Assembly: GCF_027947535.2 (NCBI RefSeq)
Contig: NZ_JAAGKO020000066.1
Span: 1 to 35,384 of the forward strand
DNA from: Streptantibioticus silvisoli
GTDB taxonomy: Bacteria > Actinomycetota > Actinomycetes > Streptomycetales > Streptomycetaceae
Direction of reading: 5' to 3'
Length of the DNA stretch: 35,384 nucleotides
Part shown: positions 8,048-11,805 of the stretch, one piece after another
Position numbering within the stretch: the stretch's first letter is position 1
How the letters are laid out: every line of letters begins with the position of its first letter
The notes under the pieces: generated by a model
What the model saw: only the letters and a program-made list of their open reading frames with translations
Databases searched by the model: none
Told to the model about the DNA's origin: nothing
Made by a program: the position numbers and the translations under genes

Positions 8048-8392
8048 TCACGCGCCGCCTTCGATGTACTCGAAGATCGCGCCGTCCGGGTGGCGGGCGA
8101 TGAGGCGGCGTCCGTTGGGTGCCGGGGACGGGCCTTCGAGGACCTGGCCGCCGGCCCCTTCGACCTCGGCGATCACCGGTGCCAGATCGCGTACCAGGAG
8201 GGTGGCCACCCGGTCCCGGTAGGCCGCCGTGTCCCCGCTGAGCAGCAGGAACGGTCCGACGCGGGCCAGTTCGACGTCGCGGAAGCGGAACCGGGCGGGT
8301 TCCTGCTCGCCGGCGACGCCCCGGTAGAACTCCACTGCGGCGTCGAGGTCGTCGACGAAGACGCGGGCGAGGACGCCCAGGATGTTGGACAT
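8048..8392 (-). CDS. VOC-family (glyoxalase/bleomycin-resistance fold) protein
   Basis: A 114-residue single-domain protein. It has the typical first strand and helix ARVFVDDLDAAVEFYRG, and ends with GAIFEYIEGG, where the glutamate is the position normally binding metal in VOC enzymes. Members are lyases, dioxygenases or drug-binding proteins, and no substrate can be proposed. The ATG at 8392 is chosen because the fold starts there; the frame extends to 8449. No clear Shine-Dalgarno was seen. It is divergent from the HNH lipoprotein gene. Confidence 0.8.
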   Translation of the reverse strand: MSNILGVLARVFVDDLDAAVEFYRGVAGEQEPARFRFRDVELARVGPFLLLSGDTAAYRDRVATLLVRDLAPVIAEVEGAGGQVLEGPSPAPNGRRLIARHPDGAIFEYIEGGA

Positions 8393-8651
8393 GCCGGGAA
8401 CAACCGCCCGGGCGCCCGGCCTATGCCCCGCCCGGCGCAACGGCGCCACCGCGACGCGTCGGCGGCCCGCCCGCCGCCGGTCCGGGCACCCGCCGCCCCG
8501 GCACCCCCCGATCGGGCGACCGGCCCCGCCCTTCGCGTCGTCCCGGCGTGTCGGGGTAGCAACTCAGGGACACGGCACGGTATATGCGGCGCGCAGGTGA
8601 GGCACACGTGCGGCACACGCGTGGCGCAGGAACGGCGAAGGGGTGGGGCGG

Positions 8652-9434
8652 ATGCGGATCGGGATCGTGGCGGTGGCAGTGGTGACGGCGGTGGGGTTGC
8701 TGGGCGGATGCAAGGGGGTGACCGTGGGGGCCGCGGCGCCCTCGGCATCGTCCGGGGCGGCCGGGCCGGGCGGCGGGTCGGGGCCGGCGGTCTCCGACGG
8801 GCACGCGGTCAGCCCGCTGGACGACCCGGACGGGACGAAACCGGGGCTGGCCGCGATCACCTCGGCGGCCGACGAGAAACAGGCGCGGGCGCTGATCGGC
8901 CGGCTGGCGACGAAGGGGCGCGGGCCCAAGACCGGCTACACCCGCGAGCAGTTCGGCTCCGCCTGGACGGACTCGGCCACCGGCGACCCGTACGCGCACA
9001 ACGGTTGCGACACGCGTAACGACGTGCTCAAACGCGACGGGCTCGACGTCCACTACCGTTCCGGTTCCGACTGCGTGCTCAGCTCCATGACGCTGCACGA
9101 CCCCTACACCGGCCGCACGATCGACTGGCTCAAGTCGAAGGCGACGGCCGTCCAGATCGACCACGTGATGCCGCTGTCGTACGACTGGCAGATGGGCGCG
9201 GCACGCTGGACGAAGCTCAAGCGCGAGGACATCGCCAACGACCCGCTCAACCTCATGCCCGTCGACGGTTCGATGAACGAGTCCAAGGGCGACTCCGGGC
9301 CCGCGGCCTGGCTGCCGCCGAACAAGGCGATCCGCTGCTCGTACGTGGTCCGCTTCGCGCAGGTCTCGCTCAAGTACGCCCTGCCCGTGACCGCTCCGGA
9401 CAAGCAGGCGATGCTCAAGCAGTGCGGCGGCTGA
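8652..9434 (+). CDS. Secreted HNH-family nuclease-like lipoprotein (DUF1524 / GmrSD C-terminal type)
   Basis: The 260-residue protein begins with a lipoprotein signal ending LLGGC (Cys20), followed by an Ala/Ser/Gly-rich linker to about residue 65. The C-terminal domain contains GCDTRND (118-124), IDH (169-171) and NDPLN/MNESKGD (197-214), the His-Asn-Asn arrangement of DUF1524 ββα-Me nucleases. It would be an outer-face membrane-anchored nuclease, perhaps for nutrient DNA or competitor DNA; this is inference. GAAGGGG lies eight bases before the ATG at 8652, fixing the start. Such secreted DUF1524 proteins are common in streptomycetes, unlike the restriction enzyme GmrSD itself. Confidence 0.85.
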   Translation: MRIGIVAVAVVTAVGLLGGCKGVTVGAAAPSASSGAAGPGGGSGPAVSDGHAVSPLDDPDGTKPGLAAITSAADEKQARALIGRLATKGRGPKTGYTREQFGSAWTDSATGDPYAHNGCDTRNDVLKRDGLDVHYRSGSDCVLSSMTLHDPYTGRTIDWLKSKATAVQIDHVMPLSYDWQMGAARWTKLKREDIANDPLNLMPVDGSMNESKGDSGPAAWLPPNKAIRCSYVVRFAQVSLKYALPVTAPDKQAMLKQCGG

Positions 9435-9500
9435 CCGGCGGGGGCCGGCGGCGGCCGGCGCGCCGTTCACCGGCCGAGCCGTTCGTCAACCATCGGGACA

Positions 9501-9540
9501 GTCAACCAGGTTGACCAATGGCCGATCGGCGCCCTACCGT
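9501..9540 (+). promoter_or_regulatory. Autoregulated promoter: palindromic operator over -35, leaderless start
   Basis: GTCAACCAGGTTGAC (9501-9515) is a perfect palindrome with 7-bp arms around one base. Its right arm contains the -35 TTGACC (9511-9516), 18 bp from TACCGT (9535-9540), which lies exactly six bases before the ATG of the MarR-VOC gene. A further half-site GTCAACC is at 9485-9491. The arrangement is what a self-repressing MarR regulator would use. Confidence 0.7.
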
Positions 9541-9546
9541 CCTCCC

Positions 9547-10404
9547 ATGACGACCACAGATCCCGCAGAGGGAGAAGTAGGCCTGCCCTTCCTGCTGCGC
9601 ACCGCGCAGCGGACGTACGGGCAGGCGGTGACGGAGGCGCTGACGGAGGTCGGCTTCGACGACATCCCGCGCAACGCGGCGTTCGTCCTCAGCGGCATCC
9701 GGAAGGGAACACCGGCCGGGCCGCTGCTGGCGCAGCTGGGGGTGAGCAAGCAGGCGGCCAGCAAGCTGGTCGACACGCTGGCGCTGCGCGGGTACCTGGT
9801 GCGCGAGGAGGACCCGGCCGACCGCAGGCGGCTGACGCTCACGCTCACCGACCGGGGCGAGGCCGCCGCGATGGCGATCCGGGTGGGCGCCGACGACGTC
9901 GACCGGCGGCTGGACGAACGGCTGGACGCCGCCGACCGGGCGACGCTGCGCGCAGCCCTGCGCGTACTGGCCAATCTCGGGACCGCGACACCGGCCATCT
10001 CGAAGGCCACCTCGAAGGCCCGCGCGGAGGCCGGCCCGCAGCAGCCGCGCCCGAGGTCGTTCTCCCCGGTCTTCCCGGTGCGGGACCTGGACGCCGCCCT
10101 GGCGCACTACACCGCCCTGGGATTCACCACCGAGGCCTACCACGACGGCGGCTACGGCTTCGCCGACCGCGGCCAGGTCTCGCTCCACCTCAGCGTGCTG
10201 CCGGAGCACGAACCGGACGGCAACGTGTGCGCGGCCTACCTCCACGTGGACGACGCCGACGCGCTGGCCGCCGAGTGGGCCCGGCCCGGGATCGGCGGGC
10301 GCACGGTGCCGCCGACCGACACGCCGTACCGGATGCGCGAGGGCGCGCACCTCGACCCCGACAACAACCTCATCCGGTTCGGCTCCCCGCTGCGGAAGGC
10401 CTGA
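9547..10404 (+). CDS. MarR-family regulator fused to a VOC (bleomycin-resistance-like) domain
   Basis: The 285-residue protein has a MarR-type winged helix in residues 10-145. The recognition helix region is GVSKQAASKLVDTLALRGYL, and the wing is DPADRRRLTLTLTDRG. After a linker (148-170), the VOC domain runs 171-283, starting SFSPVFPVRDLDAALAHYTALGF and ending DPDNNLIRFG. The second half closely resembles stand-alone bleomycin-resistance proteins. One polypeptide could therefore both sense or bind a small molecule and repress transcription. The ATG at 9547 is six bases after TACCGT with no Shine-Dalgarno, suggesting leaderless translation. Ligand and targets other than itself are unknown. Confidence 0.85.
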   Translation: MTTTDPAEGEVGLPFLLRTAQRTYGQAVTEALTEVGFDDIPRNAAFVLSGIRKGTPAGPLLAQLGVSKQAASKLVDTLALRGYLVREEDPADRRRLTLTLTDRGEAAAMAIRVGADDVDRRLDERLDAADRATLRAALRVLANLGTATPAISKATSKARAEAGPQQPRPRSFSPVFPVRDLDAALAHYTALGFTTEAYHDGGYGFADRGQVSLHLSVLPEHEPDGNVCAAYLHVDDADALAAEWARPGIGGRTVPPTDTPYRMREGAHLDPDNNLIRFGSPLRKA

Positions 10405-10658: not shown

Positions 10659-10677
10659 AAAGGCTAGGCTTACCTAA
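10659..10677 (+). promoter_or_regulatory. Iron box (DmdR/IdeR-type operator)
   Basis: AAAGGCTAGGCTTACCTAA matches 15 of 19 positions of the DtxR/IdeR/DmdR consensus TTAGGTTAGSCTAACCTAA. It ends 25 bp before the start of the siderophore-interacting protein, and TAGGCT inside it (10665-10670) could be the -10. Iron-loaded DmdR would block transcription, giving expression under iron limitation. Confidence 0.8.
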
Positions 10678-10702
10678 CCACGCTTACGTACAGGGAGTCC
10701 GG

Positions 10703-11607: not shown

Positions 11608-11805
11608 AGCGGTGAGGCGCCGGCGTGTCCAGGCGCTTCAGGCGTTCAGGCGTTGGGGCGTTCAGGCGTTCAGGCGTTCAGGCGTTCAGGCGTTCAGGCG
11701 TTCAGGCGTTCAGGCGTTCAGGCGTTCAGGCGTTCAGGCGTTCACGGTTGGGGCGCTCAGGCGCTGACGTCCAGCGGTGAGGCGTCGGCGCGTCCAGGGC
11801 CTTCA
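11608..11805. repeat. 8-bp tandem repeat array (GTTCAGGC) flanked by 33-bp direct repeats
   Basis: Ten perfect consecutive copies of GTTCAGGC fill 11660-11739. One more perfect copy (11644-11651) and variant copies (11652-11659, 11740-11747) border them. The array is flanked by two related 33-bp sequences, 11608-11640 and 11773-11805, differing at four positions (common start AGCGGTGAGGCG). It occupies the 414-bp gap between convergent genes, and nothing else is recognisable there. Eight is not a multiple of three, so it is not a coding repeat. Confidence 0.9.

Follow-up and report, generated by a model that had tools for sequence, protein, structure and literature searches.

The window analysed here is a stretch of 35,384 nucleotides from Streptantibioticus silvisoli. 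It carries a gene for a protein of 285 amino acids that joins a MarR domain and a Ble-type VOC domain, and this gene is preceded by a predicted promoter with a palindrome across its -35 element:

9485 to 9491, forward strand: additional half-site GTCAACC, unpaired, located 16 bp before the operator (sequence only)
9501 to 9515, no strand assigned: putative operator, the exact 15-bp palindrome GTCAACCAGGTTGAC of the GWCAA-N5-TTGWC type (sequence, conservation in MarR relatives)
9511 to 9516, forward strand: -35 element TTGACC, consisting of the operator's right arm and one further base
9535 to 9540, forward strand: -10 element TACCGT (TANNNT type), separated from the -35 by 18 bp and from the ATG by 6 nt
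9547 to 10404, forward strand: MarR-VOC fusion gene, 285 amino acids, ATG at 9547, TGA at 10402 to 10404
9583 to 9984, forward strand: MarR domain, residues 13 to 146 (Pfam MarR_2, AlphaFold model with MarR relatives, PDB matches)
9985 to 10050, forward strand: linker, residues 147 to 168 (model, alignment to the nearest stand-alone VOC protein)
10051 to 10401, forward strand: Ble-type VOC domain, residues 169 to 285 (Pfam, profile, Foldseek, structure alignment)

The initial annotation let its feature begin at 9501, which is the start of the palindrome; the gene itself begins at 9547. Its central claim, a MarR and a VOC domain on one chain, holds, as Pfam finds both domains above their cut-offs in a continuous frame. 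The winged-helix DNA-binding domain that defines the MarR family is detected by the MarR_2 model at residues 60 to 95 (37.6 bits against a cut-off of 27), with the older MarR model PF01047 remaining slightly below its cut-off (23.4 against 24.6 bits), and the Glyoxalase/bleomycin-resistance model PF00903 matches residues 176 to 278. The AlphaFold model of the MarR domain features six helices and a wing, with a clade-typical recognition helix at residues 68 to 80 (KQAASKLVDTLAL), and structures matched in the PDB are MarR, MexR, MepR, PcaV and CouR. In the linker, an extra helix is predicted at residues 148 to 161, and this segment can partly be aligned to the N-terminal extension carried by the nearest stand-alone VOC protein (L007, 61% identical). 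The structure models gave no support for a coupling of VOC and MarR domains, each being good for one domain only (pTM 0.46 and 0.51).

For a draft assembly of 130 contigs it is conceivable that a frameshift or another assembly or sequencing error has joined two genes, a concern that the initial annotation had raised itself. However, none of the three frames contains a stop codon between 9900 and 10404 apart from the TGA at 10402, and the earliest ATG, GTG or TTG in any frame of this region lies at 10078, already within the VOC domain. Since the junction contains neither a stop nor a start upstream of the VOC domain, one slip in sequencing cannot account for the joining of two genes, and one indel could not restore them. 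An artificial join was thus rejected and is, in our judgement, extremely improbable.

The VOC half is closest to proteins that bind bleomycin or zorbamycin, and labelling it a bleomycin-like binder, as had been done from the sequence, is fair. A profile built from 20 rows, with VOC and MarR sets aligned separately, matched ten PDB sequences at E ≤ 1e-5, nine of which are Zbm-, Sh-Ble-, BlmA- or Tn5-Ble-type binding proteins (1.4e-16 to 9.4e-11). Bleomycin- and zorbamycin-binding proteins also occupy ranks 1 to 9 in Foldseek. In VIA-align, most Ble proteins reach Z scores of 13 to 14, tied with 5ujp, 2zw4, TnmS3 and TioX, compared to 11.2 for E. coli glyoxalase I. In fold and in sequence the domain is therefore nearer to Ble proteins than to metal-dependent VOC enzymes, at 25 to 27% identity to the former in structure alignments. 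BlmA, Sh-Ble, Tn5 Ble and ZbmA are its best matches in sequence and structure, but the matched chains are single-domain proteins of 122 to 135 amino acids, whereas here the domain is fused to a repressor. The NCBIfam BLMA model matches 19 of the 20 VOC rows; against the NCBIfam Ble models the window scores 31, 26.1 and 25.4 bits, not reaching the cut-offs of 250, 210 and 140, and the VOC half is a relative rather than a named member of these curated families. A Ble-like VOC module in the C-terminal part of a larger chain is also present in the bleomycin N-acetyltransferase of S. verticillus (2zw4, residues 183 to 301 aligned), which by its title is an acetyltransferase and not a DNA-binding protein. 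Relatives consisting of the VOC domain only were found in 16 other genomes of the 297 family genomes.

The metal ligands of glyoxalase I include positions that we take to be H5 and E122 in E. coli GloA numbering. These would fall at Ser173 and Arg277 of the fusion if the ends of the alignment with 1f9z (residues 169 to 281 to residues 1 to 126) are extended without gaps, and they cover two of the metal-ligand positions, the other two being unplaced. Arg277 is invariant in all 20 VOC rows. Judging from the placed positions, the VOC domain is probably metal-free, and as these positions would be occupied by Ser173 and Arg277, thiol or glyoxalase-type ligands appear unlikely, as does metal chemistry.

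Upstream of the gene, the palindrome GTCAACCAGGTTGAC overlaps the -35 hexamer TTGACC, and TACCGT ends six bases before the ATG; both statements of the initial annotation can be read directly from the sequence. With the usual spacing between a -10 element and the start of transcription, the start predicted from TACCGT lies at or next to ATG 9547, and the transcript is therefore probably leaderless. Taken by itself, the palindrome is suggestive and weak evidence for an operator, because about 6% of shuffled sequences hold one as good: when the 112-bp upstream region was shuffled 5000 times by dinucleotides, 5.7% of the shuffled sequences contained a stem of 7 or more with a loop of 0 to 1, a fraction that rose to 17.4% if loops of up to 8 were allowed. 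The half-site GTCAACC at 9485 to 9491 is a possible weak second contact. A second palindrome, GCCGATCGGC at 9521 to 9530 in the spacer between -35 and -10, has a stem of only 5 and was set aside as an operator candidate.

Comparison with relatives makes a strong case that the palindrome reflects more than chance. A class-wide search of 394 genomes yielded seven closer stand-alone MarR loci (38 to 44% identical over the alignment), and the window groups with these seven in a tree with support of 94/83, just below the star threshold of the tool, its own branch being long. The motif GTCAA-N5-TTGAC is present in five of the seven loci, beginning 45, 45, 46, 46 and 47 bp before the assigned start codon, and the operator of the window begins 46 bp before its start codon; the rate of the relaxed motif in shuffled 100-bp upstream regions is 0.00016. 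A TANNNT element follows 17 bp after the -35 and 6 to 8 nt before the start in three of the five carriers (L082, L083 and L085); none was found within the range scanned in L084 and L087. The recognition helices of the five carriers read TKQAA (two), TRQAA, TKQAF and SKQAA. The remaining two relatives depart from this pattern: L086, with an SKQAM helix, has a TTGAC half-site and lacks the full motif, and L088, with a changed helix (TRTAG), has no site. This -46 rule rests on five loci, and searches of fresh genomes for it matched only known loci (in 2 of 12 and 1 of 35 genomes) and no new ortholog. The geometry of the relatives also favours ATG 9547 as the true start over the longer, mechanically possible start at TTG 9511. 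By comparison, then, the fusion gene has a predicted palindromic operator in its own promoter, as is typical of the MarR family.

A broader set leads to a similar picture. Among 297 family genomes, 28, the source genome included, contained a match to the MarR half at E ≤ 1e-12, giving 28 homologous loci (L034 to L061) of 34 to 44% identity, many of which are near-copies of each other. The motif GWCAA-N5-TTGWC adjoins the MarR start in 20 of these loci and is absent from eight; it lies wholly upstream of the assigned start in 19 and overlaps the start in L054. From shuffles, 0.008 of the 28 loci would be expected to carry it, and the upstream regions of 24 VOC loci do not contain it at all. As the pattern was defined after the family upstream regions had been viewed, the test was repeated with the 15-mer of the window as sole query, and 18 of 32 MarR loci matched at a shuffle p ≤ 0.01 compared to 0 of 24 VOC loci; one of the 18, L038, is a weak distant match without the motif. 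All 19 carriers with the motif upstream have an [ST]KQAA recognition helix, as has the window, and of the nine loci missed in that scan seven have a TKQSA helix, the others being L040 (TKQAA) and L054 (SKQAA). GWCAA-N5-TTGWC can thus be put forward as an operator rule, open to testing, for a MarR clade in which [ST]KQAA recognition helices predominate and whose genes adjoin those of cupins, CMD proteins, hydrolases and, in one locus, a VOC protein.

By neighbouring gene the family loci form approximately four groups (two cupin, one CMD, one hydrolase) in addition to a Paenibacillus locus with two motif sites (L025); Pfam-confirmed examples are L039 and L048 for cupin, L051 and L052 for CMD, and L046 for hydrolase. 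Tandem operator pairs are found at a distance of 21 bp in L039, L042, L044, L045, L048, L053, L057 and L060, and with a spacing of 25 bp in the loci of the hydrolase group (L046, L055, L056, L058, L059 and L061), which suggests two dimers on one stretch of DNA between the MarR gene and a divergent small enzyme gene. A sister group of MarR loci with TKQSA helices (L034 to L038, L041 and L047) lacks the motif. A transporter-like ORF is located upstream in six of these seven, Pfam MFS_1 having been tested in L034 alone. The sequence AGACAGGTA, perhaps a different operator, immediately precedes the start in every locus of this group.

As relatives share the operator, its position on the -35 element and some of the promoter geometry, autorepression is the regulation to be expected for the fusion gene. 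We consider it well supported at the level of sequence comparison, and this agrees with the autorepression that had been proposed from the form and place of the palindrome. A related arrangement has been described for SAV4189 of Streptomyces avermitilis, a MarR repressor with palindromic sites over its own -35 and -10 elements that is released from its promoter by hygromycin B and thiostrepton (PMC6036246). It resembles the fusion in being a MarR protein with a palindromic site over its own promoter, as predicted here, but SAV4189 is unfused, is co-transcribed with an efflux gene and has the site TTGCCYKHRSCAA.

Searching the genome with the palindrome, as had been suggested for finding targets, did not reveal a clear regulon. 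With any centre base and no mismatch it occurs once in the 8.70-Mb genome. With up to two mismatches, GTCAACCNGGTTGAC has 119 genome sites compared to 42 for the reversed control, an excess for which codon content is our guess. The operator pattern GWCAAN5TTGWC has 11 sites compared to 18 for the reversed control and is not enriched, and a regulon defined by it was rejected. A mechanical ORF screen placed six of the ten other sites within predicted coding ORFs; the remaining four (L003, L064, L068 and L069) may be intergenic. One of them, GTCAACAGGGTTGAC at L003:1501-1515 of the same genome, is located approximately 29 bp upstream of a gene that appears TetR-like by eye and may be that regulator's own site. 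These data bear on a reading in which the VOC domain would serve as sensor only, making the protein a one-component regulator for which sequestration is irrelevant and whose targets would include other genes, perhaps at sites missed by the motif. MarR regulators can have several targets, as SAV4189 illustrates (PMC6036246), and the candidate intergenic sites, one of them before the TetR-like gene, would fit. The lacking enrichment and the location of most other sites in coding ORFs speak against it, and we regard this reading as unlikely. Support thus exists for a single target, the promoter of the gene itself, and there may be others.

The halves of the protein occur as separate genes in the searched genomes, but no second full-length fusion was detected at E ≤ 1e-20 in two overlapping sets of 297 and 394 family genomes, in 396 phylum genomes or in 394 class genomes, searches in which 6 to 8 candidates were scored per genome and which weaker or differently built fusions could escape. 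The same holds, at the same threshold, for 14 genomes of the genus in which the nearest VOC protein occurs. The source genome is the sole representative of its genus among the genomes searched. The fusion was also not found in genome contigs (pattern-based search, four relatives), on plasmids (10 records at E ≤ 1e-5, all with the VOC half only) or in phages (one record at E ≤ 1e-5, VOC half); viral contigs contained no relative, and a plasmid search with a relative as query found nothing. None of four flanking proteins matched the compared loci at E ≤ 1e-4, most of these loci being represented with a flank of 1.5 kb only. Of 89 loci, the only ones to contain both halves (E ≤ 1e-3) are three copies of the window locus and, with the halves as separate genes, L052. 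In L052, a MarR gene with the operator GTCAACGTGATTGAC is divergent from a CMD gene (PF02627) followed by a Ble-like VOC gene, presumed to be the second gene of this divergent operon; L052 is an unfused version of the MarR-VOC partnership.

That a single one of the searched genomes carries the fusion would be expected if two working domains had recently been joined by chance in a neutral fusion without a joint function. However, the frame is open, its third-position GC is coding-like (0.80 to 1.0 in bins of 90 bases) and there are no signs of decay, while both the clade-typical recognition helix and the residues common to all 20 VOC rows have been kept. We thus consider a neutral fusion clearly improbable.

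Our preferred reading, to which we assign a probability of roughly 0.6, is a self-repressing MarR regulator with a Ble-type, probably metal-free VOC effector fused to its C-terminus. In the mechanism that we propose, a MarR-VOC dimer would bind GTCAACCAGGTTGAC, cover the -35 element and block the leaderless promoter. A ligand, sensed by either the VOC domain or the usual MarR pocket, would reach the fusion protein and lower its affinity for DNA, thereby derepressing the single gene. The level of the binder domain would then rise and a toxic natural product could be titrated, providing protection by sequestration. The gene would thus probably act as a one-gene switch that raises the level of a drug binder upon a trigger. 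As to its origin, the VOC half was probably added at the natural C-terminus of a MarR protein that was already autoregulated.

A narrower version of this reading, overlapping with it, assumes that the MarR pocket senses a small ligand and that the VOC domain is a passenger effector, its dose set by the switch and no signal passing from VOC to MarR. Stand-alone relatives keep the operator without a VOC half, so that sensing probably predates the fusion, and related MarR genes adjoin separate small enzymes (cupin, CMD, hydrolase). Mere co-expression, on the other hand, would not require a fusion, and we place this version somewhat short of even odds.

A bolder extension of the self-repressing MarR-VOC switch would make it a MarR-based counterpart of TipA, in which the Ble-type domain is both sensor and sponge and drug binding allosterically frees the protein's own operator, amplifying the sponge. 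The TipA class (TipAL/SkgA), which combines a MerR-type HTH with the drug-binding TipAS domain, is termed a 'minimal autoregulated' multidrug resistance system in PMC7762955. The common traits are an HTH and a domain of a drug-binding type on one chain, a predicted control of the own promoter and no need for another gene. The domains of the fusion are, however, MarR and Glyoxalase instead of MerR HTH and TipAS, which places it outside the TipA class, and TipA, as described there, activates upon drug binding whereas the fusion is predicted to be a repressor that covers the -35. The fusion could function in the manner of TipA even so, and we propose the full analogy only tentatively, as rather unlikely on balance. 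If true, a minimal resistance circuit of one gene would have evolved independently, and MarR plus VOC would be a second solution, unrelated to TipA, to the minimal self-amplifying drug-binding switch, as well as a compact building block for biosensors.

For operons in which a MarR gene is accompanied by VOC/EhpR genes, ligand-activated antibiotic resistance has been predicted (PMC7641849). These MarR-EVE-VOC/EhpR operons likewise pair a MarR regulator with a VOC ligand binder but, by the same source, consist of separate genes and include an EVE protein, whereas the fusion is one gene. Among the open-access papers listed, no title or abstract opening showed a MarR-VOC fusion, and the new point is the MarR-Ble fusion on one chain.

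Several neighbouring features of the window may be mentioned. A separate VOC/glyoxalase-like gene (PF00903) is located at 8048 to 8449 on the reverse strand, approximately 1 kb before the fusion; it is no close relative of the fused VOC domain, as it was not listed in the search of the own genome at E ≤ 1e-6. Directly upstream of the fusion, a GmrSD_C (HNH-type nuclease) gene with a lipoprotein-like start by eye extends from 8643 to 9434 on the forward strand. Downstream, AGGCTAGGCTTACCTAACC at 10661 to 10679, which resembles an iron-regulator box, precedes a gene for a siderophore-interacting protein (SIP; PF04954/PF08021), and an array of 16.8 copies of the 8-bp unit CAGGCGTT follows just past the SIP gene at 11630 to 11763.
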